Origin: a virus
Virus record (IMG/VR): IMGVR_UViG_3300033182_001600
Span: 1-25,102 of that record
Strand: one strand, 5' to 3'
Length of the DNA: 25,102 nt
How positions within the stretch are numbered: position 1 is the stretch's first letter; the number at the start of each line of letters is the position of its first letter. A program made the position numbers and the translations under genes. Shown in pieces: positions 3,298-24,340 of the stretch. Below the pieces are notes generated by a model. The model did not search any database, was not told the origin of the DNA, and was given only the letters and a program-made list of their open reading frames with translations.

Positions 3298-3939
3298 ATG
3301 AAGGAACTGGAGTGGGAGGCTGATGGGGCGGTTGTTGCGCGCAAGCTGATACCAGAAGAGGACGTCGACAAATATCTAGCTTTTTTTTACAAAACGTACA
3401 TTGAATCAGGCCAGACGTCGCGCGACGATGACTACATCAAATTCCCGGAAGTCCGCGACTTGGCTTGTCATAAAGCAATCGCTGACGTTTTTTGTACGAT
3501 TAACTTGATTGGTGACGTCGAGTTTTGCCTGCTCGACTGGAAGTACGATCCGATTGGTTGGCACGCAGACCTACTACCCCCGTCGACGCGTACAGCGGGC
3601 GTGATCATCGCTTTGGAAGACTTGGACCCGCGCAGCGGACTCTTCGAAATGATCCCCGGCTCACATCGCTGGGATCTTGATTTATCTCAGTGTGGGCCTT
3701 CGGACAATGGGCAAACAAAAGACTACGTGAAGGAGCAGATAGCCGACCACCTTGATTCCGTTTACAGGTTTGAGGCGTCAAAAGGTGACGTACTGATCTG
3801 GGATTCTCGGGTGATCCACCGGCGATCTCCACGAACGGCGGACGTCCCGAGGCCAACCGTCGTAACGTTGTGCAAGCTGCCGAGGTGGGAATCCAGTCGG
3901 CACGAAGGTGGTCTTGGGTTTTTGGCCGACCCTGATTAG
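3298..3939 (+). CDS. PhyH-family Fe(II)/2OG dioxygenase (213 aa)
   Basis: This is a compact PhyH-like oxygenase. The metal triad is H89-x-D91 (GWHADLL) and H174 (GDVLIWDSRVIHRRS), with R185 as the probable 2-oxoglutarate ligand. PGSHRW is at residues 120-125. At 213 aa it is shorter than typical PhyH proteins (about 250-300 aa) and lacks much of the usual N-terminal helical part, but the catalytic barrel is present. The start at ATG 3298 is supported by a -10-like TAAAAT 6 nt upstream and fits a leaderless mRNA. The 3' end overlaps the minus-strand 28-aa ORF by 4 bp. It is monocistronic in appearance, with convergent genes downstream. It is likely a paralogue of the PhyH gene at the left edge. 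Substrate unknown. Confidence 0.9.
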   Translation: MKELEWEADGAVVARKLIPEEDVDKYLAFFYKTYIESGQTSRDDDYIKFPEVRDLACHKAIADVFCTINLIGDVEFCLLDWKYDPIGWHADLLPPSTRTAGVIIALEDLDPRSGLFEMIPGSHRWDLDLSQCGPSDNGQTKDYVKEQIADHLDSVYRFEASKGDVLIWDSRVIHRRSPRTADVPRPTVVTLCKLPRWESSRHEGGLGFLADPD

Positions 3940-4022
3940 TAGATGTACGGTGGCCGGTCGTCTTTTCCGAGAAGTTTCCTGATTCTCCAGCGGATCATCA
4001 TTTTCCAGATTGCCAACTTCAT
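3936..4022 (-). CDS. Possible tiny basic protein (28 aa)
   Basis: A 28-codon frame begins with an ATGA overlap on the stop of the SGNH-like gene and ends at the 3' end of the convergent PhyH gene. The peptide starts MKLAIWKMMIRWRIRKLLG and ends KDDRPPYIY. It would form a basic amphipathic helix followed by an acidic/proline tail, a plausible membrane- or protein-binding peptide. The frame fills the whole 79-bp gap exactly, which favours it being real in such a compact genome. It has no recognised family, and no ribosome-binding site is obvious, so expression would rely on translational coupling. Confidence 0.42.
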   Translation of the reverse strand: MKLAIWKMMIRWRIRKLLGKDDRPPYIY

Positions 4023-5107
4023 GCGTAGTCGTGCGACGGTTCCAATTCCGTTCCTTCGAACCATGGTCGAATCTCCCTAATGTCTGTTGCCGACAGTCTT
4101 TCGCCGGACATGATTTCTGCGAAGTGAATTTGGCTATGTAGGCCCGGGTGGGGCCGCCGCCAAGTTTCCGTGCGGTCTAAGGCTACCGTCCATGCTTTCT
4201 CCTGCCAGTATCCGTCTGGTTCGAGATCGCAGCATCCGGGCCTTCCCATTCGTTCCAGCTGTTCGGGGTATGACCAGAACTGGAGCATTTCGGTTTCGGC
4301 GTGTCCAAATGACAATGGTGTTGACTCTTCGACCTCGGTGATCACGTGTTCTGGTGGGTCGATGAGCTCGGGGTATCCGATCTCTCTCAATGCGTTGAGT
4401 GTGCTGTTGTGCCACGTAAACAAACGAAGAGGTATTGCTTGTGAACGTGAATACATGAGAAGTATTTCTAAACTTTTTAAATTCGTGTCGAGCAAAACGT
4501 CAACTGGAACAAAGGTTTTGTGCCCAGAAAGGGTCTCGTGAAAATATGGATCCCCTGAGGAGTCGACCACGACGTTTGCGCCTTCATCATAAAAAAGCGT
4601 TCGCTGAATCCATCGATCTGGTCCAACAGATATCTGGCCTCGATACACATCAGGCATCAAAAGTAAGATCTGTTTCGGTTGTCCGTACTTCGAAATATTT
4701 GCAAACGCCCGGTATACCTGCTGCGCGACCGAAGATCCGGGACGGGCAATGTTGTTGACCGTCAGCCCAAGTGTCCGACGCAGAATATCGGGCCACGTGA
4801 AGTCGTAGGGAAGCCCCATCCCCGAGGTGATCGAACACCCAAGTGCCAGAACGTCAGGATTGGCGACGTTTTCCGGGCCGTGCATCCCGTCGGAGTTGAT
4901 GAAGTAAAGGCAGTCTTTGTGCCCGCCGCCGAACTCCTCTGATCCGTGGGTGTCGTGGAAGCGGATTCCGCGGCTCCATCTAAACCGCTTGCCCGTCTCG
5001 GGGTCCGTTGCTCTGTGAATGTCGGGGTAGTCGCGATACTTGAGGGTCGGGTACAGCGCTTTGTCGTCCCTGCGGAGGGCAGCAATGTCTAACGGTTTAT
5101 CGGCCAT
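4019..5107 (-). CDS. SGNH/GDSL-like hydrolase family protein (362 aa)
   Basis: The motif VLALGCSITSGMGLP (S92 as putative nucleophile) matches SGNH block I. NNIARPGSSVAQQ (residues 118-130) fits block II, and HPGLHSQIHFAE (residues 330-341) fits the C-terminal catalytic-His block. Block III (normally G-x-N-D) is replaced by LLLMPDVYR, so the oxyanion hole is atypical. SGNH enzymes are esterases, lipases or O-acetyl/acyl transferases acting on glycans and small molecules. Length is long for a single SGNH domain, with insertions around 150-300. The start is ATG 5107, which forms a TAATG stop/start overlap with the carbamoyltransferase; an upstream in-frame ATG would overlap that gene further and is disfavoured. 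It is the last large gene of the P450 operon, so it may trim or transfer acyl groups on the same product. Catalytic activity is inferred, not certain. Confidence 0.72.
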   Translation of the reverse strand: MADKPLDIAALRRDDKALYPTLKYRDYPDIHRATDPETGKRFRWSRGIRFHDTHGSEEFGGGHKDCLYFINSDGMHGPENVANPDVLALGCSITSGMGLPYDFTWPDILRRTLGLTVNNIARPGSSVAQQVYRAFANISKYGQPKQILLLMPDVYRGQISVGPDRWIQRTLFYDEGANVVVDSSGDPYFHETLSGHKTFVPVDVLLDTNLKSLEILLMYSRSQAIPLRLFTWHNSTLNALREIGYPELIDPPEHVITEVEESTPLSFGHAETEMLQFWSYPEQLERMGRPGCCDLEPDGYWQEKAWTVALDRTETWRRPHPGLHSQIHFAEIMSGERLSATDIREIRPWFEGTELEPSHDYA

Positions 5108-6555
5108 TATGAGACGATTCGGACGTGAGGATTGTCTTGGCGCCATCGGTCAACATCGAAAATGTCATCGAGCAGCGGCTGGTTTTTGACGTTCAAGCTT
5201 GTGTTGAGCAGAACGGGAATCCCCGTGTGTGTTTTCCATCTCTGGAGAACTTCGTAAAGACCGAAATGCTGATACTGGTTTACGGTTTGAACCCGACTCG
5301 TCTCATCTTTGTGGATCACCGCAGGTAGAAGGTCAGGTCTTTTGCACTGGACAGCGAACTGCATGTACGGGGAGGGGCGGTCGAGATCAAAGTATTCGTG
5401 GGCGTCCTCCTCCAGCACGACAGGCGCGAAAGGCCGGAACTGCTCCCGTTTTTTGACGGTGTTGACCTTCTTTTTCATTTCCGCGGTCCGTGGATCAGCC
5501 AAAATGCTTCTGTTTCCGAGTGCTCGTGGCCCGAACTCTGCGCGACCGTTGGCGACGGCGACAATGCCATTCGATGTCAGCTCGTCAACGATTGGTCCGA
5601 TCGGGTACGGGCCGCCGATGGCGTGCCCGAGGTATGGGCCTTCCCACCGAATGTGTTGTCCCCAAACTGCTAGGGCGGCGCCAAGGCTCGAACCCGCATC
5701 ACCCGGATTGGGCATAATCCAAACGTGGTCCCACATGTCCCACAGCATCGTGTTCGCTGCGCAGTTCAAAGCGCAGCCGCCCGTAAACACCAGATTTTTT
5801 GATGCGCTGTCACGTCGAACCCGCTGCATGAGTTCGCGGAGCCGGTCTTCGTAGACTTGCTGCACGGCTGCGGCGATGTCAAATTTGTCTTGTTCCGTGC
5901 GAATTTTGTGTGGCCAGTCTGGAACGCCGTAATGCATGTTGTACGGCTGATAGTGAAATTTCGGGAAGTACTGTTCGACTTCAGTGATGTATCTTCCCGG
6001 ATATCCGAAAGCGGACATGCCCATCAGGATGTATTCCTCGATGCCGGGTTTGAGTCCGAGGAGTTGGGTGAAGGCGCTGTAGAAAAGCCCGAAGCTTGTC
6101 GGGTATTTCAGTCCTCCGCGTTTGACTATTACCGGCCCTTTGGCGTCCCAGATGGTGAGGGTGTCGAATTCTCCGATGGCGTCGATGACGACGATCGTGG
6201 CGTTGTCGAATGTTGATGTGTAGTAGCCGGCTGCGGCGTGGCTTTTGTGATGGCCGACCTGTATCTCCGGGATTCGTTTGAGTGCTGGCGCGGTTTTCTT
6301 GTAGAGGTGCTCGTATGCGCCGTTGATTCCGCCGTGCACGAAGTTGCGCCACCTTTTTTTGTTTCTGTGTTCGAAGTATGCGATGACGTCGGGTTCGCCG
6401 AATTCCATGGCGGTGCCGAAGAGTGCGTGCGGGTTGGAGAACGAGTGTTTTTCTTTGTTTACACGTTCGCCGTGTGTGGCGAAAACGATTTTGCCGTTTT
6501 CCACGACTGATACGGCGGCGTCGTGGGACGAGTCGTTGATGCCGAGAATTCTCAT
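5107..6555 (-). CDS. NodU/CmcH-family O-carbamoyltransferase (482 aa)
   Basis: The ASKHA-type N-terminal domain begins MRILGINDSSHDAAVSVVEN and contains HHKSHA (residues 102-107), VFTGGCALNC (256-265) and NPGDAGSS (283-290). The YrdC-like C-terminal part carries GRAEFGPRALGNRSI (337-351), REQFRPFAP (370-378) and LLNTSLN (429-435). These are hallmark blocks of carbamoyltransferases such as NodU, CmcH and TobZ, which use carbamoyl phosphate and ATP to put a carbamoyl group on a hydroxyl. Length is slightly short for the family (usually about 500-600 aa) but no core block is missing. The ATG at 6555 overlaps the P450 stop by 4 bp (ATGA), and its own stop overlaps the SGNH start. A hydroxyl made by the P450 or by a 2OG oxygenase in the operon could be its acceptor. 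The family is known in marine phages, but the natural acceptor there is not established. Confidence 0.95.
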   Translation of the reverse strand: MRILGINDSSHDAAVSVVENGKIVFATHGERVNKEKHSFSNPHALFGTAMEFGEPDVIAYFEHRNKKRWRNFVHGGINGAYEHLYKKTAPALKRIPEIQVGHHKSHAAAGYYTSTFDNATIVVIDAIGEFDTLTIWDAKGPVIVKRGGLKYPTSFGLFYSAFTQLLGLKPGIEEYILMGMSAFGYPGRYITEVEQYFPKFHYQPYNMHYGVPDWPHKIRTEQDKFDIAAAVQQVYEDRLRELMQRVRRDSASKNLVFTGGCALNCAANTMLWDMWDHVWIMPNPGDAGSSLGAALAVWGQHIRWEGPYLGHAIGGPYPIGPIVDELTSNGIVAVANGRAEFGPRALGNRSILADPRTAEMKKKVNTVKKREQFRPFAPVVLEEDAHEYFDLDRPSPYMQFAVQCKRPDLLPAVIHKDETSRVQTVNQYQHFGLYEVLQRWKTHTGIPVLLNTSLNVKNQPLLDDIFDVDRWRQDNPHVRIVS

Positions 6556-7802
6556 TTGAACCTGACCGGCATTGTCCGCCAACCGTGAGCCCATCTTGAT
6601 GGGGCGAAAGTAAAGCCCTCTGTGATTGGTTCGAATTTAGGGAAGTACTCGAACAGGCAGCGTATGGCGGCCTTTATCTCCGCGCGGGCAAGATTTGCGC
6701 CGATGCAGAAGTGCGGGTTTGGTGTGCCGAAAGAAAGCTGCATTGGCTTCAGGGGGCGACGCACATTGAACCGGAGGGGGTCGTCAAAAACTGCTTCATC
6801 GAAATTGGCGGAGTGGTAAAAGAGAACGACGCGTTCCCCGGGTTTCACCTCGACATCGCCTATCTGGGTTGGCCGGACCGCCGTTTTGGCAAAGTGGATG
6901 ATCGGGCTGTGGTATCTGGCGAGCTCTTCTGTCGCTGTTCCGATGAGCTCGTCAAAGTTATTTTCGAGGTCTTCTCTTTGTTCTGGCTCTCTCCACAGGA
7001 AGTAAACCGCCGCGCTGATCACGTTTGACGTGGTTTCAAAGCCGGCATTGATCAGAAGTGAGAAAAAGTCTGCGTATTCGTCGGGGGTGAGCGGCCGATT
7101 CTGGAAATCTGTCGAAGTCATCAGGCGTGATGTGAGATCATCGCCCGGGTTATCCCTGCGTTCTTCTGCAAGTTTGTGTGCGTACTGATACATGTCGCGA
7201 CATGCCCGCAACCATTTGACCGGGTTCCCGTCCTCGTGGGCTGGGTGGTGCAGCTGCATCATCTGGGCTGTCAGGCCACCTATCCACTCGACGTCTTCTT
7301 CTGGTACCCCCATCATCCGGCAGGTGAGAAGACCTGTGATTTTGTCAGAGAACTCTGTTCTGAAATCGGCGAGCCCGTCAGGGTGCTTCGCGATAATGTT
7401 TTCTGCAACGCTTTTTGTTATATCGTCAATCGTGGATACTAACTCTTTGATCGCCTTGGGGGTAAAGGCGGAGGAGATGATGCTGCGAAGCTCAGTGTGT
7501 TCCGGCTGGTCCATCGCAAGGATCGACCCTGTGAACGGCATGCTTTTGAACCTCTTCGACATTTCCGCGCTTCGACCAAGCATGATGCCGTGCGCTGTGG
7601 AAAGCGCGTCGTCGGAGCCCGCCTGTACGCAATCCTTGTAGGAGAGCATGGCCCAGTAGGAGCGATCTTTGTCTCCGTGCTCGCAGAAAAGGTATGGCCG
7701 CTGCTGTCGGGCCATCTCCATAAAGCGTCTTTTCCTCAGCTCGTGGTGCTCCAGAGTTGAATAGAGTTCCGGAATCCAAGAGTCACTAACTGGTTCGTTC
7801 AT
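6552..7802 (-). CDS. Cytochrome P450 (416 aa)
   Basis: This is a complete bacterial-type soluble P450. The I-helix oxygen-activation motif is INAGFETT (residues 251-258). The K-helix ExxR is E293-L-A-R296. The heme loop is LSFGTPNPHFCIGANLAR, with C366 as the thiolate ligand. The C-helix segment DQPEHTELRSIISSAF (98-113) is typical of class I bacterial P450s. There is no N-terminal membrane anchor and no fused reductase, so electrons would have to come from host ferredoxin and reductase; none is encoded in this window. The start overlaps the preceding 2OG oxygenase by 17 bp and the stop overlaps the carbamoyltransferase start, so it is embedded in the phage operon and not a lone passenger. 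P450s are rare in phage genomes. Substrate unknown. It resembles actinobacterial P450s in general style, but the subfamily is not assigned. Confidence 0.97.
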   Translation of the reverse strand: MNEPVSDSWIPELYSTLEHHELRKRRFMEMARQQRPYLFCEHGDKDRSYWAMLSYKDCVQAGSDDALSTAHGIMLGRSAEMSKRFKSMPFTGSILAMDQPEHTELRSIISSAFTPKAIKELVSTIDDITKSVAENIIAKHPDGLADFRTEFSDKITGLLTCRMMGVPEEDVEWIGGLTAQMMQLHHPAHEDGNPVKWLRACRDMYQYAHKLAEERRDNPGDDLTSRLMTSTDFQNRPLTPDEYADFFSLLINAGFETTSNVISAAVYFLWREPEQREDLENNFDELIGTATEELARYHSPIIHFAKTAVRPTQIGDVEVKPGERVVLFYHSANFDEAVFDDPLRFNVRRPLKPMQLSFGTPNPHFCIGANLARAEIKAAIRCLFEYFPKFEPITEGFTFAPSRWAHGWRTMPVRFK

Positions 7803-8505
7803 TGTTTGAGGGTGGCGGTTTGAGATGGTCAGGTATTTTTGCTAAATCTTCTTCAGATAGAAGTTCTGTTACTTCGTGAATGTTCTCCACGTCGTGCCAC
7901 CAGTTCCTCTCCAAACTCGGAATGAGGTTGTGGATAATCGTTCTTGCTCTTGGCCAAAATGAAGTGATGATGTATCTATTGCCTGATCTTATTTCCCTCA
8001 CCCCGTGAAGGTACTGGGGTGAGGCCGGGAACGCGATCATTAGGCCCGGACGGGGAACAATCTGGACACCATAATGGTAGAAGTAAATTTCCCCTCCTTC
8101 AAAGTTGCTGTTCAGGTAGGTGACCGTGGCAAAGTCATTGTGGTGCAAGGAAAGGGTTCCCTTGTTTTGGGTGAAGATAACCCTTCCGTCAGCGTGGCCG
8201 ACATCACAATGCGGTGACTGGAAGTCTCCCGGAACCCACTTCCTGAAAGAACTCCTTCTGATTTTCACCAACGTTTCGCCGAAGAATTCCTCGAGGGCGA
8301 GCTTTTTTCTATCTTGGAAGGATTGAACGATGTCGATCAGGTTCGGGGGGACATCGAAAACTGATCGCTGGTAGTGTCGACGTTCGCGCAGGTCGCCGTG
8401 ACCGGGCTCGTCCCAAGTGTCTTCTCGATCGAGGAAATCTACGAGCGCGTCACATTCGTACTGTGAAAGAAATTCTTCCTTGATCAGAAGTTGGGGGAGG
8501 ATCAT
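7786..8505 (-). CDS. P4H-like Fe(II)/2OG oxygenase, subgroup C (239 aa)
   Basis: The protein has the double-stranded beta-helix (DSBH) blocks of prolyl-4-hydroxylase-like oxygenases. H99-x-D101 is in SPHCDVGHADG, followed by FATVTYLNSNFEGGEIYFYH, PRPGLMIAFPAS, H167 in YLHGVREI and R177 in SGNRYIITSFW. The YLHGV-x-x-I-x-SG-x-R block is shared almost exactly with the gene at 23666-24289, which defines a paralogous pair between the two minus-strand operons. About 55 extra C-terminal residues beyond the barrel are hydrophilic and end in a proline-rich tail. The start at ATG 8505 overlaps the stop of the upstream 101-aa gene (ATGA), and the 3' end overlaps the P450 by 17 bp. The likely reaction is hydroxylation of a protein side chain or small molecule. 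Substrate unknown. Confidence 0.92.
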   Translation of the reverse strand: MILPQLLIKEEFLSQYECDALVDFLDREDTWDEPGHGDLRERRHYQRSVFDVPPNLIDIVQSFQDRKKLALEEFFGETLVKIRRSSFRKWVPGDFQSPHCDVGHADGRVIFTQNKGTLSLHHNDFATVTYLNSNFEGGEIYFYHYGVQIVPRPGLMIAFPASPQYLHGVREIRSGNRYIITSFWPRARTIIHNLIPSLERNWWHDVENIHEVTELLSEEDLAKIPDHLKPPPSNNERTS

Positions 8506-8807
8506 CCCTCGGGTGTTTCAGGGTTCAGGTATGCGTACAGTGTGATGCGAGCGTGCCGCTCAAACGTCGGTAGCTCGAGGGGGAACGGGAGGTCCGCTTC
8601 GAGATGCCCGAGGATTTTGTAGGCAACCGTGCTGGACTCGAGATCAACGCCCGCGGGCTGCAAAAGTCGAAAAACTTTTCCGTCCCAGCGGATTTCGTAG
8701 TTGCCGGATTCGTGCTCAAGTAGAACGGTCTGCCCGTGGGTGGCAGTTTCCAGTTCAGCGATCTGCTCGGTTCCAGCGTCGGGAAGTTGGGGTGTTTCTT
8801 CAGTCAT
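8502..8807 (-). CDS. Hypothetical protein (101 aa)
   Basis: I do not recognise this family. The first 30 residues are acidic and probably disordered (MTEETPQLPDAGTEQIAELE). The rest looks like a small alpha/beta fold with NYEIRWDGKVFRLLQ, AYKILGHLEADLPF and a final strand RHARITLYAYLNPE. The start is ATG 8807; a longer in-frame extension would run into the upstream oxygenase and is disfavoured. The stop overlaps the next oxygenase start (ATGA), so it is an integral member of the operon, between two P4H-like oxygenases. It might be an accessory or substrate-carrier protein, but nothing in the sequence shows that. Confidence 0.75.
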   Translation of the reverse strand: MTEETPQLPDAGTEQIAELETATHGQTVLLEHESGNYEIRWDGKVFRLLQPAGVDLESSTVAYKILGHLEADLPFPLELPTFERHARITLYAYLNPETPEG

Positions 8808-8824
8808 GGCGGCAATCGTAGCAT

Positions 8825-9529
8825 CTACTTTGGCGGAGTTTGGTCCATCATTTCGAAAACTGTGTCTGTGTTCTCGTAGGTTTTCCACCACTCTGTCGGG
8901 ATGGTCTGGCCCATGAGTGCTCTCGCGATGGTGCCGCATCTGATCCAGTGGGTTGCTGATGTGTCCCTTACTCCGCTGGTCACTTCGGTGACCCTGTGCT
9001 CGTATCCGTAGGAGCACGGGAAGGCGACAAGTTTTCCGGGTTCTGGCCGAATCGTCATGCCCAGCTCTGGGAATTCGAGCTCGCCGCCCTCAAAATCATC
9101 GTTGTAGTACAAAACGGTGGCGACTTCGAAGAATGCCCGCGGGATTGTTGGCCCTCTGGTCTGGAAGTCGAGTTTGTTATCGTATAGGAAGCCGTCTCCG
9201 TGTCCACCCATGTGGGTTCCCGCGACCCATCGGCGAAATGTTGGGTCTGGTTTGAGCAGGAAGTCGTCTCCGAAGGCAAACTCCACGTATTTGTGCATGC
9301 GGTGGTTGATGTAGGCGTATGGTGCTGTTAGGCAGTTTTCTTCCCAGTATTTTTTACTGAACGTTTGGTGATGTGGCTGGCCTTCAATATGATCGGTCGA
9401 AGTGATCGGTTCCCAGAAGTCAGGGTTGCTGTGGTGTTTTCTCCAAAAATCAAGCTCGTCCCGATCAAGGACATGAGTCCACTGATGGATCACCTCGCCC
9501 GGCCTGAATGGAAATTCGTGGACTACCAC
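8825..9529 (-). CDS. P4H-like Fe(II)/2OG oxygenase, subgroup B (234 aa)
   Basis: Metal triad residues are H110-x-D112 (GGHGDGF) and H178 (YGYEHRVTEVTSG), with R188 as the probable 2OG anchor. The block IPRAFFEVATVLYYND, then DFEGGELEFPELGMTIRPEP and GKLVAFP, matches the gene at 19981-20664 nearly position by position (LPRAFIEFVSLIYFNADF, GGELIFPDLSLSIHPEAGML), so they are paralogues. Translation probably starts at GTG 9529: it directly follows the upstream TAA and has GAGGAG about 9 nt upstream. The N-terminal 80 residues (DRDELDFWRKHHSNPDFWE) also resemble the paralogue (FWQQNMADPRFWEGG). It sits in the P450 operon. Substrate unknown. Confidence 0.92.
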   Translation of the reverse strand: MVVHEFPFRPGEVIHQWTHVLDRDELDFWRKHHSNPDFWEPITSTDHIEGQPHHQTFSKKYWEENCLTAPYAYINHRMHKYVEFAFGDDFLLKPDPTFRRWVAGTHMGGHGDGFLYDNKLDFQTRGPTIPRAFFEVATVLYYNDDFEGGELEFPELGMTIRPEPGKLVAFPCSYGYEHRVTEVTSGVRDTSATHWIRCGTIARALMGQTIPTEWWKTYENTDTVFEMMDQTPPK

Positions 9530-10036
9530 TTAGATCACTCCTCGGATTACTGCCACAGAGTTCGCCCTTGCCCCCATGAACAAGTGTGTACTCGCATTCT
9601 CTACCAGCATCACACTGCCGACCTCGGCCTCGATCGGAGTATTTACTAGCCCGGCAGGCAGAAGCATAATGGGGTTAGGGCCGATCACAACAATGACGGT
9701 GTGGGTTGTGTCGGGGAAAAGCAGAGGAGAACCCCAGTGCAGCTCGGTTTGAGGTTCGGACGCGATGCGACACGCCCTCCAATCACCGACCTGATTTAGG
9801 TTTTCGCCTTTAAGAATCCGCTCATTGATGTCGCGTTCGAAGTGATGCAGGGCGTCATATAAAACTTTGCCGTGCTTGTAGGACCACAGCTCCGACATCA
9901 CCATATCTGCCTGCTCTAAGCCGTTTGCCAGAGTCATCGGCAGGGCGATCGCGCCATCCTTGTTGTGCTTTCGCATCGTTTCTTCGGTGGTGAATGTCAC
10001 CGCCGTGGCGAAAGGATGGACTTTCAGCTTAGGCAC
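9530..10036 (-). CDS. Hypothetical protein, possible degenerate beta-helix/cupin-like fold (168 aa)
   Basis: I do not recognise a specific family. The C-terminal two thirds look like a short beta barrel. TELHWGSPLLFPDTTHTVIV is followed by a strand pair VVIGPNPIMLLPAG, then EVGSVMLVENASTHLFMGA and VAVIRGVI. The order H...GS.MLVEN..THLF...R resembles the second half of 2OG-oxygenase or cupin barrels, but no HxD/E motif is obvious, so metal binding is doubtful. The N-terminal 60 residues are helical (ETMRKHNKDGAIALP, MVMSELWSYKHG). Translation starts at GTG 10036, 6 nt after the TauD-type stop, and the stop abuts the start of the next oxygenase. As a member of the operon it could be an inactive oxygenase relative or a binding partner. 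Confidence 0.7.
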   Translation of the reverse strand: MPKLKVHPFATAVTFTTEETMRKHNKDGAIALPMTLANGLEQADMVMSELWSYKHGKVLYDALHHFERDINERILKGENLNQVGDWRACRIASEPQTELHWGSPLLFPDTTHTVIVVIGPNPIMLLPAGLVNTPIEAEVGSVMLVENASTHLFMGARANSVAVIRGVI

Positions 10037-10042
10037 AATTCG

Positions 10043-11032
10043 TCACATTCCGATAGAGCGTAAATATTCCTGATACTGGTCTTCTGGCAGCCTGTCTTCC
10101 GGCTCGGAAGAAGTGCCAAACGGGAAGCACCAGAACCCGTGGAACGATCTTTCGCCCGGCTGGAAGCCGGCTTTGACGCCGTGAGCCATCCGGAACAAGT
10201 CCGGTATCACTGCGTCACCTTCTTGCCATTCCCACCAAATCTGGTTGGCGGCGTTGTTGGTGATTTCGTCGTACAGCCACTCGAAAAACTCGCTGAACAG
10301 GGCTTTTTCGTCGTCGGTTGGCTTGCGGTTGTCGACGGAAAGCAGATAATCCTGAGGGCCCCACGGCGCTTTGCATGGGCAAACTCTCAATGTTTCAAAT
10401 CCTGTTTTTGGACTAATTTCAAGCGGCGGACGACTGTGGGAAGCTTTATTTAAGTCTCCATCCTTTGTCCAAATAATTTCTGTAAAAGCATCAACTTTTG
10501 CTTCGAATGTATCTCTAAACCCATCCATTGACTCTGGCTTATGCTGCCAGTTGGGCATATGAACGACTTTAGATTTTTCCAACAGATCACGGTAATTCTG
10601 GGGAAGCTTCGTAGCCAATCGCTCCATGTCAACGAAACCAGTGTTCCCAGTTCCCGGCTCAGCCGTAAAGTTATACATCCACCACATAGATGCCGACTGG
10701 GTGTTTTTCATCGAAACACCCTCCACATGCCATTGGATTACCTCATGGTTTTTGTCATTCTGCTCGCCTTTGATCAGCCAGCCAATCTGGAGATCATGAA
10801 CTTGGTGGTACCGCCAAGAGCCGGTTGAGGCTGGGTCCAAACGATTTCTGTCTGGGGACGGTGTGAACCCAGCGATGTCACCGATTCTGGTCAGCAACTC
10901 CATCAAGTCGCCCTCGTTTTTTTGCTGGCCGCGAAGGACAACGAGTCCACGTTCCAGAAACTTGGCGGAAATTGTCGATGGCCTGAGGATTAGTTCCTCA
11001 AGCGGCCGATCGAAAACGAAATCTAAACTCAT
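10043..11032 (-). CDS. TauD/TfdA-like Fe(II)/2OG dioxygenase with HxE motif (329 aa)
   Basis: The TauD-type layout is clear. H102-V-E104 is in IQWHVEGVSM, NTGFVDMERL (residues 130-139) is the strand that usually reads GGxTxF.D, and H284 and R295 lie in FRMAHGVKAGFQPGERSFHGF. The carboxylate ligand is Glu where most TauD enzymes use Asp; HxE is known in the clavaminate-synthase branch of the superfamily and is compatible with activity. The N-terminal helix segment FLERGLVVLRGQ is typical of the family. Length is normal. The start overlaps the stop of the peroxidase-like gene (ATGA). It is likely an early tailoring hydroxylase or dehydrogenase in the same pathway as the P450. It is one of two TauD-type genes, one per minus-strand operon. 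Confidence 0.9.
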   Translation of the reverse strand: MSLDFVFDRPLEELILRPSTISAKFLERGLVVLRGQQKNEGDLMELLTRIGDIAGFTPSPDRNRLDPASTGSWRYHQVHDLQIGWLIKGEQNDKNHEVIQWHVEGVSMKNTQSASMWWMYNFTAEPGTGNTGFVDMERLATKLPQNYRDLLEKSKVVHMPNWQHKPESMDGFRDTFEAKVDAFTEIIWTKDGDLNKASHSRPPLEISPKTGFETLRVCPCKAPWGPQDYLLSVDNRKPTDDEKALFSEFFEWLYDEITNNAANQIWWEWQEGDAVIPDLFRMAHGVKAGFQPGERSFHGFWCFPFGTSSEPEDRLPEDQYQEYLRSIGM

Positions 11033-11715
11033 GCGTCGTAGGGTTCATCCAAGAAAAGCTCGATTGACGCCCGAATCCGCCGAAGCGCGTCCTGCGGGTC
11101 AAATGTTGACCATCCGCTCTCAAGGTTTGACGGCAGAAGGCTGCCGTTGGTGAAGCGCGAAATACGCCGGCCGTCGCGTGAAACAACAAATTTCTCAAAG
11201 TTGCCCCTGATTTCCCCAATGTCCACGCCAAGGCGCTCAAACAGGAGGTGGGGGTGCTGTTCGGGCTCATCCTCGCGATTATGTCGCGACGCAACCAACT
11301 CAGTGAATGGCAGGCGGATCCGGTAGTGCTGGTAGGCGAATTTGTGGCACTCCTCTGCCGTGGACCGGGAGTCCTTGAAGTCTCCGTAGCCGAATTCGCA
11401 GTAATCGTTGGTCGGAACGCAAACGACTTCGAATCCCCGATCGGCGTAGTCGTACTGGAGAACCTGAAGCATGGGGTATTGCATCGAGTTTCCGCATTCT
11501 CCGGTGACATTCACGATCATCGTGACGTTGCCTTTTCGGGGCGCGAGGCAGTCCATCTTGCCCGAAACGTCCCTGATCGGCACGTCATATACGGAAAGTC
11601 CATCTGGGGTCGGGTAGAGATGCCCTTCAGAGGCTAGGAACTCTTCCACGCTGGAACGGTTTTTGATGTCGCTGATCACGTCCACTTTTTCTCCAATCTT
11701 TCGGACTGATACCAT
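11029..11715 (-). CDS. Glutathione-peroxidase-like thioredoxin-fold protein (228 aa)
   Basis: The segment SVYDVPIRDVSGK is followed by VTMIVNVTGECGNSMQYPML and GFEVVCVPTNDY. These match the first half of glutathione peroxidases, where V-N-V-A-S-x-[CU]-G carries the peroxidatic residue; here C74 takes that place. PHLLFERL and GNFEKFVVSRDGRRISRF follow the family order. Two of the four usual catalytic positions look changed: the Gln of the P-C-N-Q-F block is replaced in PTNDYCEFG, and the Trp before NFEKF is Gly. So it may be a peroxidase with altered chemistry, a thiol-disulfide protein, or a non-catalytic relative. It has about 45 extra N-terminal and some extra internal residues. The chosen ATG 11715 avoids a TTG further upstream. 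It is the first gene of the P450 operon. Confidence 0.8.
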   Translation of the reverse strand: MVSVRKIGEKVDVISDIKNRSSVEEFLASEGHLYPTPDGLSVYDVPIRDVSGKMDCLAPRKGNVTMIVNVTGECGNSMQYPMLQVLQYDYADRGFEVVCVPTNDYCEFGYGDFKDSRSTAEECHKFAYQHYRIRLPFTELVASRHNREDEPEQHPHLLFERLGVDIGEIRGNFEKFVVSRDGRRISRFTNGSLLPSNLESGWSTFDPQDALRRIRASIELFLDEPYDA

Positions 11716-13062: not shown

Positions 13063-13397
13063 GGAGCTCTCAGACTGGCGGATTCAGCCTTTTTGACCCG
13101 GCTGACTACATCGCTGACCGTGAAACAACTTTGGCTACCGCCGCCCTTATTGGCGGTTTGGATATTGCGAACTTTGATTCGCTCACTATCGACGACATCG
13201 TGAACAGCGTTCGAGATATTTTTCCGTCGCAGGTTCAGCCACTGACGACAAAGATGTTTGGCCAGCACGGTATCCAGCAGAAAACCGTGAACCCCGCGTA
13301 TCTGTGGAACAAAAAAATGCAGCAGAAAGTTCTGCATAAAGTTCGCTGTGATTGGCGTGATCTTCACATGGCTAAGTGGGTGATGGAAAATGGCTGA
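13059..13397 (+). CDS. Hypothetical protein (112 aa)
   Basis: Not recognised. The N-terminal half (GGFSLFDPADYIADRETT, then LATAALIGGLDIANFDSLT) contains a small hydrophobic helix flanked by acidic residues. The C-terminal half is basic and helical (AYLWNKKMQQKVLHKVRCDW, then RDLHMAKW), which could bind nucleic acid or an acidic partner. It starts by ATGA coupling and overlaps the next gene by 8 bp. Confidence 0.75.
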   Translation: MRSSQTGGFSLFDPADYIADRETTLATAALIGGLDIANFDSLTIDDIVNSVRDIFPSQVQPLTTKMFGQHGIQQKTVNPAYLWNKKMQQKVLHKVRCDWRDLHMAKWVMENG

Positions 13398-14166
13398 TCG
13401 GCTAGTTGAGCGTGCCCGTTCACAGCGACTCATGTCTTCAGGTTGGGGCGACGACGAGTTCCCCTACTGGATGGATCGCTTCCAAGACTGGGGTATTGTC
13501 GGTCACAACATGCTTGAGTCTGCTGCGGTGGACAAAAGGCTTATTGCTGTGCAGGAAACCGAAAGCATCCCGATTTTTGATTTTCTGGTGACTTCGTCGC
13601 CCGAGTGGCGCGAAGTCATGTTTTACATGATGGCCCTACCTCGGCTGCTTCTAGAAACTTCGATGAAGCTCGGATGGCATAACTCGACCGGGTTGAACAT
13701 TCTGTCCCACGGGGTGGATATTCCGGTTTGGGATGCCGACATGGTGAGTGGCAACAACAACATTCACTTCTTAAACGAGTTTGAGCTTCATGTGAGCGAA
13801 ACCTTCTGGCAGTCGCCAGATGGACCCTTCGAGGACCCATCGGTGTTGAAGTATTTTGTTGTTGACCATTCTGAGATTCTTGACGGTTCTCTGGACGGTT
13901 ATTTTGACCTAATCATGATGCCTCTTCACCGTTTTCAAGATTTTTCTTTCGAGCACATGAATAAGCTTGTTGACTCGATGAAGCCGGGCGCGCTTCTGCT
14001 GTGCCGGAACATGGCGCCGCGAAACTTTTCTTATTATCAGCCGATGTTTTTGCATGCCTACCCGGAGCATGACTACAGCAGGCTTCTGGCCGACCATCCT
14101 GATCTAACGTCGAGGCACATGTCTTGGGGTAACGGTCTGGTTGTCGCCTACAAAAATTCCGAGTGA
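13390..14166 (+). CDS. Hypothetical protein, weakly methyltransferase-like C-terminal half (258 aa)
   Basis: No firm family. The C-terminal part has the order seen after motif IV in class I SAM methyltransferases: GYFDLIMMPLHRFQDFSFEH, then MNKLVDSMKPGALLLCRNM and a final strand WGNGLVVAYKN. The Gly-rich motif I (G-x-G-x-G) that binds SAM is not visible; instead there is LNILSHGVDIPVWDADM. So it could be a diverged or catalytically dead methyltransferase-like protein, or an unrelated Rossmann fold. It is the last gene of the plus-strand run begun at 11792. The next gene starts 12 nt later behind its own candidate promoter. Confidence 0.7.
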   Translation: MADRLVERARSQRLMSSGWGDDEFPYWMDRFQDWGIVGHNMLESAAVDKRLIAVQETESIPIFDFLVTSSPEWREVMFYMMALPRLLLETSMKLGWHNSTGLNILSHGVDIPVWDADMVSGNNNIHFLNEFELHVSETFWQSPDGPFEDPSVLKYFVVDHSEILDGSLDGYFDLIMMPLHRFQDFSFEHMNKLVDSMKPGALLLCRNMAPRNFSYYQPMFLHAYPEHDYSRLLADHPDLTSRHMSWGNGLVVAYKNSE

Positions 14167-14178: not shown

Positions 14179-15189
14179 ATGAGACTTTTCGGCCCTCCAG
14201 ACAGCGACAAATTCGCCTACCACAAACTTGGCGAAGGTGACTTTGAGTGGATTGATTCGCTTGAGTACACCAACCATCCCGGTGGCGTCGTTCACTTCCA
14301 CGGCGCTTTCGAGATCGACCAAAAGCGAATCCTCCCCTATCTTGACGATCTGGCATACATGCCTTCTTGTGGCCTGAAGATCGTCAAAGACGATGATGGG
14401 AACATGCTTCACGGGGAAACCTTCGAAGGAACGATTGTCGACATCAGTGATCTGATGCGTCTCCCAATGCGGGTCGGTGGCCACGGAGAGCCAGAACCCG
14501 TCAACCCCCTCACCCCGGAAGACATCCGTGAGTTCTTCGAACACGTGGAGGAGACGTTCTACATGGCGCTCCTCCGCTACTGTGATTTGTACCCTCTGGT
14601 CGTCAACACCCTGCTGTGGCGCATGCGCGGTCATGCTCTTCGCTACAGCCCTGACGCCTCTCTAGGGATCCATAACGACAACGACACCAACACGCTGATG
14701 CGCAATGGTCAGCGATGGGAGTCAGGCCGCGAAATCGCGATGTATCAGGTCACCAACGGCCTCGCATATTTCAACGACGACTACGAGGGCGGCGAGTTCA
14801 GGTTCCCGTATCTGAATCTGACGCTCAAGCCGAAGACTGGTGACATCATCCTGTTCCCTGCGAACTACATCGGCACGCACGGTGTCGCCCCAATCAAATC
14901 TGGCCTCCGGTACTCGTACCTGACCCAGTTTGGTCATGGCGGCGGCCACCGCTATGAAGTGACGGAACCCAATGACAGCAATGTTTGGCTTCCACCTGTG
15001 TGGATGCCGTTTCTAGCTCAGGACCTCCACAAGCTTCAGCAAACCGAATATTCCCATTTGGACACCGCGGGCGACCGTGCAGTTGGCCTCTCAATGTCCA
15101 CGACTCTTGAGCAGACCCGCGAGGCGGAAGGCGGCGCGGTTGGCGAGTTCATCGCCTACGAGGAAAAACCTGTTACTGTCGGGTCATGA
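14179..15189 (+). CDS. P4H-like Fe(II)/2OG oxygenase, subgroup A (336 aa)
   Basis: Metal triad H165-x-D167 (SLGIHNDNDTN) and H234 (YIGTHGVAPI), with R244 in SGLRYSYLTQFGHGG. YFNDDYEGGEFRFPYLN is the usual strand between them. It shares W-x-[MI]-[RK]-x-H-x-x-x-Y before the HxD, and THxV...RxSYLxxFGHG after it, with the genes at 17952-18605 and 19170-19988, which defines subgroup A. The N-terminal 140 residues and about 80 C-terminal residues are extra compared with the minimal fold; the C-terminus is Thr/Glu-rich. It is the only P4H-like oxygenase on the plus strand. It overlaps the next small gene by 4 bp (ATGA). Possible targets are protein side chains or nucleotides; substrate unknown. Confidence 0.92.
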   Translation: MRLFGPPDSDKFAYHKLGEGDFEWIDSLEYTNHPGGVVHFHGAFEIDQKRILPYLDDLAYMPSCGLKIVKDDDGNMLHGETFEGTIVDISDLMRLPMRVGGHGEPEPVNPLTPEDIREFFEHVEETFYMALLRYCDLYPLVVNTLLWRMRGHALRYSPDASLGIHNDNDTNTLMRNGQRWESGREIAMYQVTNGLAYFNDDYEGGEFRFPYLNLTLKPKTGDIILFPANYIGTHGVAPIKSGLRYSYLTQFGHGGGHRYEVTEPNDSNVWLPPVWMPFLAQDLHKLQQTEYSHLDTAGDRAVGLSMSTTLEQTREAEGGAVGEFIAYEEKPVTVGS

Positions 15190-16671: not shown

Positions 16672-16677
16672 TAAGGT
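16672..16677 (+). promoter_or_regulatory. Candidate leaderless -10 box (TAAGGT)
   Basis: TAAGGT is followed by 7 nt and ATG 16685. The intervening GTGCGAC does not hold a good ribosome-binding site. This matches the TANNNT-plus-6/7 spacing found before other single or leading genes here. Confidence 0.38.
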
Positions 16678-17754: not shown

Positions 17755-17967
17755 ATGAATTACAACGATTTTGTCTCAATGGTAAATCGGGAGTTCGATC
17801 GATGTAAAAAGATCGACTCGACCTACAGGTACGGCCAGTGCATGTTCAACATGCTCGCCGCGTTCAAGGGCTACATCGCTGAAGAGATTCGGGCAACACC
17901 GCTAGATCCCTTTTACAAAAATGACGTGCCGCAGGAAACGTGGGAGTACGTTCACGACCGCTGGTAA
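17755..17967 (+). CDS. Hypothetical small protein (70 aa)
   Basis: Not recognised. It is helical with aromatic and charged residues: MNYNDFVSMVNREFDRCKKI, then YRYGQCMFNMLAAFKGYIAE, and a C-terminal QETWEYVHDRW. Two cysteines (in RCKK and GQCM) could pair. The start is supported by GGGAG 7 nt upstream. It overlaps the convergent oxygenase by 16 bp at the 3' end. Confidence 0.75.
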   Translation: MNYNDFVSMVNREFDRCKKIDSTYRYGQCMFNMLAAFKGYIAEEIRATPLDPFYKNDVPQETWEYVHDRW

Positions 17968-18605
17968 CCGACCGCGTTGGCGCGGGTTCCGTGACCAAAG
18001 AACTCTAGATACGACACCCGCCGACCCCACGTAACGTCTTTGACCGCGTGGGTGCCGAGGTAGCCGCTCGAGTAAACGATCGCCGATCCAAACTTCGGGA
18101 CGATCTCACAATCTGGGTAGCGGAATGCCAGCGCCCCACCCTCGCAGTAATCGTCAAGAATTAGCGACGCTGTCAGGACGTTCTGGATTGAAGCTTCGCT
18201 TGCCTCGCCGTCACCGACCAGATTGTCGTGGTGGAAGCCCATGCCGGCCGATATGCCATATGAGGCTAAGTGTGGGTCTGTCCGCCACCAAACACTCTTT
18301 TTGACGTCGGGATATGCCTCCATATAGGCATCGACGGCATATCCGACGGCTTCATATATCTTCTGGAAAATTGCGGCGTCTTCTTCGCTGCACTGTTCTG
18401 TGAGGTGAAGGGCTCTTCGGGGTGACGCCTCGATATCAGCCGCCTCGAAGCGATATCCACCACGATTCAGATATGAGCCGTCCTCTTGAAGGAAGTAATC
18501 CTCGGGCTGTTCATCGAACCGGCGTTGGATCCAGTCGAGAATCTCGCCACGGTTGTGGTTGAAGATGTCGGGGAATTCGACGACGCCGAAACCGTGGTCG
18601 ATCAT
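17952..18605 (-). CDS. P4H-like Fe(II)/2OG oxygenase, subgroup A (217 aa)
   Basis: Metal triad H125-x-D127 (GMGFHHDNL) and H186 (YLGTHAVKD), with R196 in WGRRVSYLEFFGHG. LTASLILDDYCEGGALAFRY is the intervening strand. WW-R-x-x-x-H-x-x-x-Y before the HxD and the SYLxFFGHG ending place it with the genes at 14179-15189 and 19170-19988. It is shorter than those, lacking their N- and C-terminal extensions. ATG 18605 forms a TAATG overlap with the Rossmann-protein stop, making it the last gene of the long minus-strand run. Substrate unknown. Confidence 0.91.
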   Translation of the reverse strand: MIDHGFGVVEFPDIFNHNRGEILDWIQRRFDEQPEDYFLQEDGSYLNRGGYRFEAADIEASPRRALHLTEQCSEEDAAIFQKIYEAVGYAVDAYMEAYPDVKKSVWWRTDPHLASYGISAGMGFHHDNLVGDGEASEASIQNVLTASLILDDYCEGGALAFRYPDCEIVPKFGSAIVYSSGYLGTHAVKDVTWGRRVSYLEFFGHGTRANAVGYQRS

Positions 18606-19201
18606 TACACGGGTCGGCCGGCTGCGATGTTTTCGGCTCGTTCGCGCTCGTTGCGAAGGCGCTTGAACTTTTTTGCGGTGATCCCGTCTCTTTCCTCGGT
18701 GTACATCACGTCCCAGTAGCCGCAGGTGAAAAGGTTTCCGACGGCCGTGGCTTTTTCTCCTGACAGGTACATCGTGTGCTCGTCGGTGTAGCCGTCAAGT
18801 CCGGGGTGGGGCCATCCATACAGTGCTGCTTCGACGTACGAAAATTTACCTGTCTGGGCTTTTTCGGCGACCTCGACTTCGGACTCTTCTCCCCAGAGAC
18901 CGTTGGCGTCGACCCAGATTCCGTCGAAGTCGCGAGCGATCGCTTGATCCATGTATTCGAACAGGCTTCCGCCATTGACGATGCAGAAGATGATGTCGCA
19001 GGTGTCGATCAGGTTGTCGACGGTGCCGAGATCGATCAGGTGAAATTCCTCGGCGCGTGCTGCTGTGAATTCGCTGCGCCCCTCGGACGCCCAATGGGCC
19101 TGATGTCCGCTGCCTTGGAGGCCGCGGGCGATCGTGCCGCCCATCTTGCCGGGGTGGATGATGCCGACTTTAGCCGACTGGGGGGAGAATCGAGTATCCA
19201 T
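18605..19201 (-). CDS. Rossmann NAD(P)-binding protein, 6PGDH/HIBADH N-domain-like (198 aa)
   Basis: Residues 11-29 read KVGIIHPGKMGGTIARGLQ, the dinucleotide-binding beta-alpha-beta turn in the G-x-I-H-P-G-x-M-G form of the 6-phosphogluconate / 3-hydroxyisobutyrate dehydrogenase superfamily. Later strands CDIIFCIVNG and GIWVDANG, and SYVEAALYGWPHPGLDG, follow the family order. The C-terminal all-helical domain that normally completes the active site and dimer (total about 290-300 aa) is missing; only a short basic helix (AKKFKRLRNERERAENIA) follows. So it may bind NAD(P)H without classical dehydrogenase activity, or pair with another subunit. ATG 19201 is chosen over ATG 19216 for the smaller overlap. 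It sits between two subgroup-A oxygenases and might oxidise a hydroxyl they produce. Confidence 0.8.
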   Translation of the reverse strand: MDTRFSPQSAKVGIIHPGKMGGTIARGLQGSGHQAHWASEGRSEFTAARAEEFHLIDLGTVDNLIDTCDIIFCIVNGGSLFEYMDQAIARDFDGIWVDANGLWGEESEVEVAEKAQTGKFSYVEAALYGWPHPGLDGYTDEHTMYLSGEKATAVGNLFTCGYWDVMYTEERDGITAKKFKRLRNERERAENIAAGRPV

Positions 19202-19988
19202 GTTCCATGTACACATTCGTTGAGATTGAAGCGATTTCGGGGTTTTCCTTGGGGTCGACCACGTTTTCGCTTACTGCCGGATTGGGTGTTCCCTGACAAT
19301 ACCACCCGAGGTACGAGTAGCGCCACCCTCCTGTAACTGGCCGGACTTCGTGGGCAGCCATGTAGTTGGACGGGAAGAACAGAATGTCGCCTTTCTTGAT
19401 GTCTTTGTGGGTGATGTCGAGATATTCGAAATGGTGTTCGCCGCCGGTGAAGTTGGTGCCGTCGAGTTCGTCTTCTGTTTCGACGCGGTCGTTGAGGTAG
19501 GCGACAACGGACACCGTATTTCGTGTGGCGAGCTGATCCCGCGGATGCGGTCTGCCGTATTCGTAATCGGTGCTGACGTCGGCATGCATTCCGAGGAATC
19601 CTCCGACCGGGTAGGCGACGATGTGGCTTTTGATTTTCCACCAGATGCATTTCCCGGCGATCGGGAATTTGTTCAGGTAGTCCAGAAGGCAGGCGTCGCG
19701 CTGCTCCTCGATGTAATTGAGGGCGTCGATAACTTCTTGTCGGCTGTCTTGATGGACGAAGCTTCCTCGCCACGGCATCTCGTCAAGCGACCGTTTGGAG
19801 AAGAAGTATTTGCTGCGGTTGATGTAGCCCTCTTCCCCGGTGATGGGGTCGATGCCGGGTTCGTACATCGTGTCGCGTTCCTTCTGGAGTGTTTCCTTGC
19901 AGTAGGAGCGCATCCACCCCCAGTCGAGCTCGAAGGCGTTTTCGTACAGGACTACACCGCCACCCAAATGTTCACCGCGCTTACCCAT
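19170..19988 (-). CDS. P4H-like Fe(II)/2OG oxygenase, subgroup A (272 aa)
   Basis: Metal triad H135-x-D137 (FLGMHADVSTDY) and H213 (YMAAHEVRPVTG), with R223 in GWRYSYLGWY. TGGEHHFEYLDI and KKGDILFFPSNY are the DSBH strands. CIWWKIKSHIVAY before the HxD matches subgroup A. There is a longer loop (EYGRPHPRDQLATRN, and DRVETEDELDGTNF) around the active site, which may set substrate choice. The start is ATG 19988, overlapping the upstream oxygenase stop by 8 bp; the long frame beyond it is antisense-like and rejected. The 3' end overlaps the Rossmann gene. Substrate unknown. Confidence 0.92.
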   Translation of the reverse strand: MGKRGEHLGGGVVLYENAFELDWGWMRSYCKETLQKERDTMYEPGIDPITGEEGYINRSKYFFSKRSLDEMPWRGSFVHQDSRQEVIDALNYIEEQRDACLLDYLNKFPIAGKCIWWKIKSHIVAYPVGGFLGMHADVSTDYEYGRPHPRDQLATRNTVSVVAYLNDRVETEDELDGTNFTGGEHHFEYLDITHKDIKKGDILFFPSNYMAAHEVRPVTGGWRYSYLGWYCQGTPNPAVSENVVDPKENPEIASISTNVYMEHGYSILPPVG

Positions 19989-20664
19989 TGTCGTCCTCCG
20001 GAAAAATTGCGTCGAGGTATCGCATCGTAGAACGAATTGTTCCCTCAAGCACTGTAGCGTGTGCCGCGATGCGCAAAGTGCGGACCCGTGTCCAGAAATG
20101 TGAAATTCGAAGTCTTGGCGAGCCTCCGGTAACGGCATTGACTGAGTGTCCGTGTTTATCAGTCGAAGGAAAAAAAACTAACATCCCTGCTTCTGGATGT
20201 ATTGAAAGGCTCAAATCGGGGAAAATAAGTTCACCGCCGGTAAAATCCGCATTAAAATATATCAATGAGACGAACTCTATGAACGCACGCGGCAAAGAAT
20301 CGCCGTTGGAGTCAAAATCTAAGCTTCCGTTGGGGTGAAGATGGTCGTGATGTGTGCCCATCCAGAAACCGGGCACAGAGCGTTCGAAAAAGGATCCCGC
20401 ATCTGTCGAGACATCCTCCCCGAAACAGGAATGAATAAGACTTCTTACCCTGTCGATAAGTGCAGCCTCTTTTTCTACCGCCATAGTAAAATTTGACATA
20501 ATTTCCGCTGAATCAGAGCGGACAGCTTCGATGCCGTCCTGAACAAAGCCGCCCTCCCAAAAGCGCGGGTCTGCCATATTCTGCTGCCAAAATTGGACTT
20601 CCGGGCCGTCTAAAAAGTTACGGACCAAGTAGACGCCGTCAACTAAAGAGACGTCGAGAGTCAT
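19981..20664 (-). CDS. P4H-like Fe(II)/2OG oxygenase, subgroup B (227 aa)
   Basis: Metal ligands are H105-x-D107 in GTHHDHLHP and H173 (or H171) in DKHGHSVNAVTGG, followed by R184/R186. LPRAFIEFVSLIYFNADF and GGELIFPDLSLSIHPEAG match the subgroup-B gene at 8825-9529. The DFDSNGDSLPRAF segment corresponds to DFQTRGPTIPRAF there. It starts ATGA-coupled to the upstream TauD-type gene and ends overlapping the next oxygenase by 8 bp. Its DNA looks more AT-rich locally (around 20160-20280) than its neighbours, which might reflect a different origin. Substrate unknown. Confidence 0.91.
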   Translation of the reverse strand: MTLDVSLVDGVYLVRNFLDGPEVQFWQQNMADPRFWEGGFVQDGIEAVRSDSAEIMSNFTMAVEKEAALIDRVRSLIHSCFGEDVSTDAGSFFERSVPGFWMGTHHDHLHPNGSLDFDSNGDSLPRAFIEFVSLIYFNADFTGGELIFPDLSLSIHPEAGMLVFFPSTDKHGHSVNAVTGGSPRLRISHFWTRVRTLRIAAHATVLEGTIRSTMRYLDAIFPEDDNG

Positions 20665-23663: not shown

Positions 23664-23665
23664 TG

Positions 23666-24289: not shown

Positions 24290-24297
24290 CACCGAGG

Positions 24298-24303
24298 AGC
24301 GTA
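24298..24303 (-). promoter_or_regulatory. Candidate -10 box (TACGCT) for the second oxygenase run
   Basis: TACGCT on the minus strand lies 8 nt upstream of ATG 24289, in a 51-bp gap after the membrane-protein gene. A transcript from it would be leaderless or nearly so. No -35 is visible. Confidence 0.28.
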
Positions 24304-24340
24304 CCACATCTGCGGCAAGACAGTCTCAGGGGAGAAAGTC

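Follow-up and report, generated by a model that had tools for sequence, protein, structure and literature searches.

A viral gene block of oxygenases, a cytochrome P450 and a carbamoyltransferase, and a proline-repeat gene paired with a prolyl hydroxylase-like enzyme: a possible module for virion protein modification

The IMG/VR virus record IMGVR_UViG_3300033182_001600 was examined over its whole length of 25,102 nucleotides (nt; the window) and is most likely a genome fragment. It contains a block of nine closely spaced genes on the minus strand, running from 11715 to 4019. In order, these encode a glutathione peroxidase (GPx)-like protein, a TauD-type 2-oxoglutarate (2OG) oxygenase, the protein unk168, the 2OG oxygenase OGb, the small protein unk115, the 2OG oxygenase OGa, a cytochrome P450, a carbamoyltransferase (CT) and an SGNH hydrolase-like protein (Table 1). 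Families were assigned by Pfam, with the exception of the SGNH-like protein, for which motifs and a predicted structure were used. ATGA overlaps of 4 nt are found at three junctions (GPx/TauD, unk115/OGa and P450/CT), OGa and the P450 overlap by 17 nt, and the CT/SGNH junction is TAATG, provided that the SGNH-like protein starts at its 14th codon (Met14). The catalytic motifs of the block enzymes are all intact. An earlier note on this DNA had described a minus-strand run of coupled genes with these enzymes, including two prolyl 4-hydroxylase (P4H)-like oxygenases, and both the couplings and the enzyme calls were borne out. Its list omits nine further 2OG oxygenases and one proline-repeat gene within the same window.

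The CT matches Carbam_trans_N (PF02543) at 9e-37 and Carbam_trans_C (PF16861) at 6e-53, both above cut-off, as well as phrog_1601 at 1e-102. Its start, MRILGIND, yields the ATGA overlap with the P450 stop. The protein contains HHKSH and GRAEFGPRALGNRS, and in alignment it keeps the catalytic HHxxH and the C-terminal GRxExGPRALGxRS motifs of the family. By domains and motifs it is classed as a NodU/CmcH-type O-carbamoyltransferase, the nearest PDB entries being the novobiocin, GdmN and TobZ enzymes. All diagnostic features of a P450 are present in its neighbour: the heme Cys loop FGTPNPHFCIG, the ExxR motif as ELAR and the acid-alcohol pair of the I-helix in AGFET. The nearest solved relatives are CYP125 and CYP124 (PDB 8vxg, 1.9e-59; 2wm4, 1.1e-57).

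The SGNH-like protein has no Pfam match; its GCS nucleophile and HPGxH motifs are invariant in 10 relatives. The AlphaFold model (mean confidence, pLDDT, 74.7) matches the SGNH fold, with VIA Z scores of 10-13 to many SGNH entries, including 13.4 to CgnD (8a2n) and 13.0 to 4rsh, and the two motifs supply the active-site Ser and His. CgnD, an enzyme of crocagin synthesis, is the top match of the model in two programs, although another SGNH hydrolase ties in Z. The GPx-like protein keeps the peroxidatic Cys position in NVTGECGN, in agreement with the NVxxxCG motif and its PF00255 match; the conserved Trp and the NQ motif are altered, as judged by eye. No PDB or Pfam match of note was obtained for unk168.

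Twelve 2OG-dependent oxygenases are encoded in the window. OGa to OGh, eight in all, are P4H-like, and the TauD and PhyH types account for two each. All twelve retain the HxD/E...H pattern. At the far end of the record lies a gene for a protein with xFPP repeats; next along the minus strand come OGh, OGg, DUF6065, TauD2, OGf, OGe, an NAD-binding protein and OGd. OGh alone has no Pfam match and its likeness to prolyl hydroxylases comes from the family profile, of which the top PDB matches are prolyl 3-hydroxylase 1 (1.2e-7) and a bacterial P4H (1.5e-4). The best match of the OGg profile is a bacterial P4H (1.6e-5), with the lysyl hydroxylase LH3 matched too, and the OGa profile has weak matches to prolyl 3-hydroxylase 1 (best, 0.0021) and P4H. 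The three proteins share the HxD...H facial triad and the 2OG-binding basic residue and are closest to prolyl hydroxylases; on these motifs and profiles they are prolyl hydroxylase-like 2OG oxygenases. The DUF6065 protein is predicted to have a dUTPase-like fold, at about twice the length of a dUTPase (AlphaFold pLDDT 83.6; Foldseek matches to dUTPases at 1.3e-4).

Table 1. Features of the record, with positions in the 25,102-nt window
Feature	Position	Strand	Evidence and remarks
PhyH-type 2OG oxygenase	3298..3939	+	Pfam PhyH 3.7e-15; opposite strand, adjoins block; syntenic in L093, L094
SGNH hydrolase-like protein	4019..5107	-	Motifs and AlphaFold model
NodU/CmcH-type carbamoyltransferase (CT)	5107..6555	-	PF02543, PF16861
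Cytochrome P450	6552..7802	-	PF00067 1e-23
OGa, 2OG-Fe(II) oxygenase, prolyl hydroxylase-like	7786..8505	-	PF13640 (2OG-FeII_Oxy_3) 7e-9; HxD..H
unk115, small conserved protein, Met15 start	8502..8807	-	
OGb, 2OG-Fe(II) oxygenase, GTG start	8825..9529	-	PF13640 2e-9; HxD..H
unk168, fast-evolving protein, GTG start	9530..10036	-	
TauD-type 2OG oxygenase	10043..11032	-	PF02668 8e-21
GPx-like protein, first gene of run	11029..11715	-	PF00255 (GSHPx) 1.6e-10
Possible methyltransferase-like protein (by eye only)	13390..14166	+	Same place in three contigs
OGc, 2OG-Fe(II) oxygenase	14179..15189	+	PF13640 3e-7; 92-93% in syntenic contigs
Second oxygenase operon: OGd, NAD-binding protein, OGe, OGf, TauD2	17952..22238	-	PF13640 (three), F420_oxidored, TauD 1e-27
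DUF6065 protein	22238..22966	-	PF19541 3.5e-42
OGg, 2OG-Fe(II) oxygenase, P4H-like	22968..23708	-	PF13640
OGh, 2OG-Fe(II) oxygenase paired with xFPP-repeat gene	23666..24307	-	Profile
xFPP-repeat protein, C-terminal (F/H)FPP repeats, cut by record end	24620..25102	-	Proposed substrate

In uncultured phages the xFPP gene and OGh are neighbours almost without exception. A DNA pattern for FFPPFFPPHFPP was used to collect xFPP loci and gave at least 119 stretches. A 2OG oxygenase is present in 58 of the first 80 and a DUF6065 gene in 48 of those 80. Of 60 loci with 2 kb available downstream of the xFPP gene, 46 have a 2OG gene on the same strand that begins inside this stretch; on the upstream side the count is 0 of 42, a contrast that is partly trivial because a long tail-type gene fills the upstream side. 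An independent reverse test was based on loci fetched by the OGh profile alone, with 2.5 kb on both sides (n = 41). The xFPP repeat lies within 5 kb of OGh in 40 of these loci and within 3 kb in 38. Counted per cluster, the pairing holds in 29/30 at 95% identity and 19/20 at 85%, and the repeat was found in none of 88 background loci (1.47 Mb in total, for the most part CT loci from related phages). The xFPP gene is upstream of OGh on the same strand in 18 of 60, a count that misses the frequent convergent OGh. In many contigs (L248-L285 and others) OGh is inverted or convergent to its operon and still adjoins the xFPP gene. The sole OGh locus of the 41 lacking the repeat, L285, has a collagen-like Gly-X-Y stretch (3840-4658, minus strand) in the adjacent tail gene; such stretches are rare (2/78 OGh loci).

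The repeat units of the xFPP genes differ at synonymous positions, which fits conservation at the level of the protein sequence. The proteins bear fn3 (1.9e-11) or sub-threshold PASTA domains and, in relatives, their genes sit downstream of long tail or structural genes with PHROG matches (phrog_697-like). The xFPP proteins thus appear to be virion proteins, and OGh is likely to perform prolyl hydroxylation of them. The near-invariant pairing provides a concrete, testable substrate for a viral prolyl hydroxylase-like family, and as a finding it may outweigh the block itself. In Baltic Sea viruses, prolyl-4-hydroxylase is among the abundant auxiliary genes and its viral use has been called cryptic (PMC9301287).

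Relatives of the block were sought in viral contigs. Single-sequence scans with the CT and the P450 matched nothing; alignment-based scans did find relatives, at 80 CT loci and 6 P450 loci. A DNA-level search of isolated phages gave no match to the record. The search for the same gene order, which the earlier note had proposed, found the whole block kept in three contigs (3300033182_001465, 3300010389_003201 and 3300047562_005006), in which a second SGNH gene is present. The genes are therefore not scattered in all relatives. A chimeric assembly was rejected because 3300033182_001465 carries the same order throughout the 25,102 nt, xFPP operon included.

Within the syntenic contigs, the CT is 82-87% identical at the protein level, with saturated synonymous differences, and TauD 51% and unk168 36-38%. 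The small protein unk115 is 62-71% identical in the three contigs and 39% in L013, where it lies beside the CT. Between the record and 3300033182_001465, synonymous sites of the block genes differ at 0.7-0.8, at or near saturation, with proteins 37-87% identical. Recent gene exchange was discarded as the cause of the uneven divergence (CT 87%, P450 45%), since synonymous sites are saturated for both; the unevenness reflects constraint. All the genes compared look to be under purifying selection, tight for the CT and OGc and loose for the P450, unk168 and TauD, and the loosely constrained ones may encounter substrates that vary. The usual neighbours of the CT among its 80 loci are 2OG (42/80) and SGNH genes (41/80). 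Of 27 contigs searched for the P450, mostly large CT contigs, 23 gave no match. In a 156-kb relative (contig 3300027848_000009), an apparently decayed block at about 15500-17270 of L228 retains unk115 and OGa intact, with CT and SGNH matches of only 55 and 93 amino acids and no P450. The same contig carries a tryptophan-halogenase family gene (L230:3486-4895; Pfam 8e-93) near a GPx-like gene.

The hosts are probably actinobacteria. WhiB genes are present in all close-clade CT contigs longer than 100 kb and in 6/6 FFPP contigs longer than 90 kb; of 14 control genomes, only that of Corynebacterium has them. The record itself is too short for a judgement on WhiB, and the host assignment is made via these large relatives. 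Searching bacterial genomes with the CT clade gave six loci, of which the four best are from actinomycetes. In two of the nearest, both from Plantactinospora (L100, L102), the CT is preceded by ABC transporters and by a class III lanthionine synthetase, LanKC (1103 bits against a cut-off of 575). These lanthipeptide-type clusters are candidates for carbamoylated ribosomally synthesized and post-translationally modified peptides (RiPPs). In Actinokineospora, the gene after the CT encodes a DUF6071 protein that has a GCS motif.

Several contigs tie the block to the xFPP system. L014 and L155 contain, in one run, xFPP, GPx, 2OG, SGNH, CT, OGh, OGg, DUF6065, TauD2 and OGe. In L096/L097, a single run extends from xFPP through the P450 and oxygenases to SGNH and CT, and in L296 the P450 adjoins OGh. 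OGh and xFPP are present in all P450 contigs long enough to judge (the examined record, G003, G004, G007, G059, G073 and G001, the last with a cut P450); two P450 fragments of 14-15 kb are too short. G059 and G073 do not count as independent evidence for the P450, as they were found through OGh. A 28% relative, L098, has neither OGh nor xFPP in the 12.6 kb read. The tie of the P450 to the xFPP system is fair and rests on few contigs; that of the CT is weaker than the P450's.

The explanation preferred here, at a probability of roughly 45%, is that the block is an optional module of a phage system, acting in actinobacterial hosts on a proline-rich virion (tail fibre) protein that is made by the ribosome. 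A ribosomally made protein as substrate is suggested by the xFPP gene beside its prolyl hydroxylase-like partner, by the CT relatives next to class III lanthipeptide synthetases and by the SGNH fold closest to CgnD. The core of the system would be the xFPP protein, whose gene comes directly behind a long tail gene, together with its dedicated OGh and usually OGg and DUF6065. Further 2OG oxygenases and the P450 would place hydroxyls onto side chains, and the CT, drawing on carbamoyl phosphate and ATP, would turn a hydroxyl (or amine) into a carbamate. Like CgnD in crocagin synthesis, the SGNH protein would hydrolyse a bond, either ester or peptide, and the GPx-like protein would clear peroxides made by the oxygenases. 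A chemically altered fibre could bring changed adsorption, stability or protease protection. That the P450/CT/SGNH block acts on the same or another virion protein is given slightly less than an even chance. If the P450 and CT do act on the same protein, phages would have an enzymatic route to a chemically diversified surface and could serve as a new source of enzymes that modify peptides. A broader proposal, held only tentatively, is that actinobacterial tailed phages subject a virion protein to RiPP-like tailoring by a line of several enzymes. Here a dedicated prolyl hydroxylase would turn the xFPP repeats of a tail fibre to hydroxyproline, and optional P450, 2OG and CT steps (in one relative a tryptophan-halogenase-like enzyme) would yield chemically diversified fibres.

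A number of observations weigh against a virion protein substrate for the block. In the examined record the block and the xFPP gene are 13 kb apart, in separate operons. The CT occurs in 1/24 OGh contigs, and a strong OGh in 5/29 CT contigs; as the CT is mostly without xFPP or OGh, it may have another substrate, and the tie of the block to the xFPP protein is weaker than that of OGh. This distance and the independence of the CT elsewhere are the most serious weaknesses. In addition, the P450 resembles lipid and steroid hydroxylases, and, by analogy, hydroxyproline was not found in virions of the chlorovirus PBCV-1 despite its active viral P4H (PMC7019647).

The enzymes may instead tailor a small molecule, a host metabolite or natural product hydroxylated by the P450 and 2OG enzymes, carbamoylated by the CT and trimmed by the SGNH protein, which is considered rather unlikely. 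The enzyme set is typical of tailoring; the PDB relatives nearest to the CT are the novobiocin, GdmN and TobZ enzymes, and those nearest to the P450 are the lipid and steroid hydroxylases CYP124/125. Bacterial CT relatives lie in biosynthetic-type clusters of Nonomuraea and Plantactinospora, although the two in Plantactinospora accompany a lanthipeptide synthetase, which is peptide chemistry. Natural-product tailoring had been the reading of the earlier note. Its linked and conserved run of tailoring-type enzymes stands, and its order of hydroxylation followed by carbamoylation is chemically sensible; the small-molecule scaffold fared less well, the linked genes indicating a ribosomally made protein. 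No scaffold-forming enzyme (nonribosomal peptide synthetase, polyketide synthase, terpene) was seen among the Pfam-scanned proteins of the window, itself a genome fragment, nor was a transporter recognised there, and the P450 contigs long enough, the weak relative L098 excepted, also carry OGh and xFPP. Modification of a cell-surface or virion glycan through sugar O-carbamoylation is less probable still. Sugars are the substrates of NodU and TobZ, carbohydrate esterases are among the enzymes with an SGNH fold, and the CT genes of cyanophages and pelagiphages adjoin genes for a sugar epimerase, UDP-glucose dehydrogenase and glycosyltransferase. Those Nol-like CT and 2OG genes belong to the same families as here (phrog_1601 and phrog_61), but the CTs of the isolates are 28-34% identical to that of the window and often lie in sugar clusters. 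The window has no recognised glycosyltransferase or nucleotide-sugar gene, and the frequent neighbours of the closest CT clade are the 2OG and SGNH genes counted above.

The block could also be a loose set of auxiliary genes near a recombination-prone tail region, or its oxygenases could merely lower 2-oxoglutarate, with no joint pathway. The authors of cyanophage studies proposed 2OG modulation or DNA repair (PMC3037559, PMC2984593), and the P450 is absent or moved in relatives. This is nevertheless improbable given an order kept in four contigs across saturated synonymous divergence, 12 intact oxygenases of several families and an OGh/xFPP pairing that survives gene inversion. Least credible by far is DNA modification, in which the oxygenases would produce hydroxymethyl bases and the CT 5-carbamoyloxymethyl-cytosine. 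A phage-type CT does so in vitro (PMC8670742), and OGb has a weak Tet_JBP match (0.0057, below cut-off). The 5-hydroxymethylcytosine carbamoyltransferase phages (MetaGPA, eLife 2021) encode a CT with the same Pfam pair, but their partner, a PF00303 homologue of thymidylate synthase or dCMP hydroxymethylase, was not seen among the scanned proteins of the window, which is a fragment, the oxygenases are prolyl hydroxylase-like and a P450 does not fit.

A close parallel to modification of a ribosomally made product is the crocagin RiPP pathway of Chondromyces crocatus (CgnA-L). There, hydroxylation of the peptide by a dioxygenase and release of the core by CgnD are accompanied by methylation through CgnL and carbamoylation through CgnI (PMC10070186). 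Both systems combine a peptide substrate (proposed here), a dioxygenase (CgnC), an SGNH-like protein, a CT and a methyltransferase (a possible one here), whereas the viral block adds a P450, TauD, GPx and many P4H-like oxygenases. Profiles of unk168, unk115 and DUF6065 (shallow alignments, from a fragment) brought up no informative relatives in PDB and did not reach the CgnB or CgnE chains, and no crocagin-type short precursor peptide was identified, no systematic search for small open reading frames having been made. The lanthipeptide and crocagin parallels are analogies, not membership. Carbamoyltransferases in RiPP synthesis have been called exceedingly rare (PMC13174530).

Phage CT and 2OG genes, a P450 in one phage isolate and chlorovirus prolyl hydroxylases are already known. 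The CT and 2OG oxygenases are common in cyanophages (PMC3037559), and a P450 gene has been reported for Mycobacterium phage Adler, likewise a phage of actinobacteria (PMC9405906). The P450 described here differs in that tblastn found no relative of it in 50,697 phage records. The phage collection gave no P450 or DUF6065 match, and OGh was matched weakly. PBCV-1 also encodes a prolyl hydroxylase acting on proline-containing peptides, but it is a eukaryotic virus, and no fixed pairing with one repeat protein is described there. The claim that no described phage system has this combination therefore holds for the set with the P450, for which no precedent was found, and not for CT with 2OG genes or for a phage P450 as such. 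A search of the open-access literature found neither the xFPP/oxygenase pairing nor the P450-CT-SGNH-oxygenase block described.

Some minor observations concern other genes. In L002 (Marine virus AG-345-D19), 8 kb hold a CT and two SGNH-like genes, and radical SAM, amidinotransferase-like and sulfotransferase-like genes were noted by eye near the CT. The protein at 13390..14166 has no Pfam or PHROG match. The order of the second oxygenase operon is kept in L224 and largely in L151. A small protein with PAKK-type repeats (KKTPAKKTPAKKAAAKK) is encoded at 16676-16927 on the plus strand and is weakly matched at the equivalent position of syntenic contigs. As the P4H of PBCV-1 reportedly acts on Pro/Lys-rich repeats, this protein is an alternative candidate substrate.

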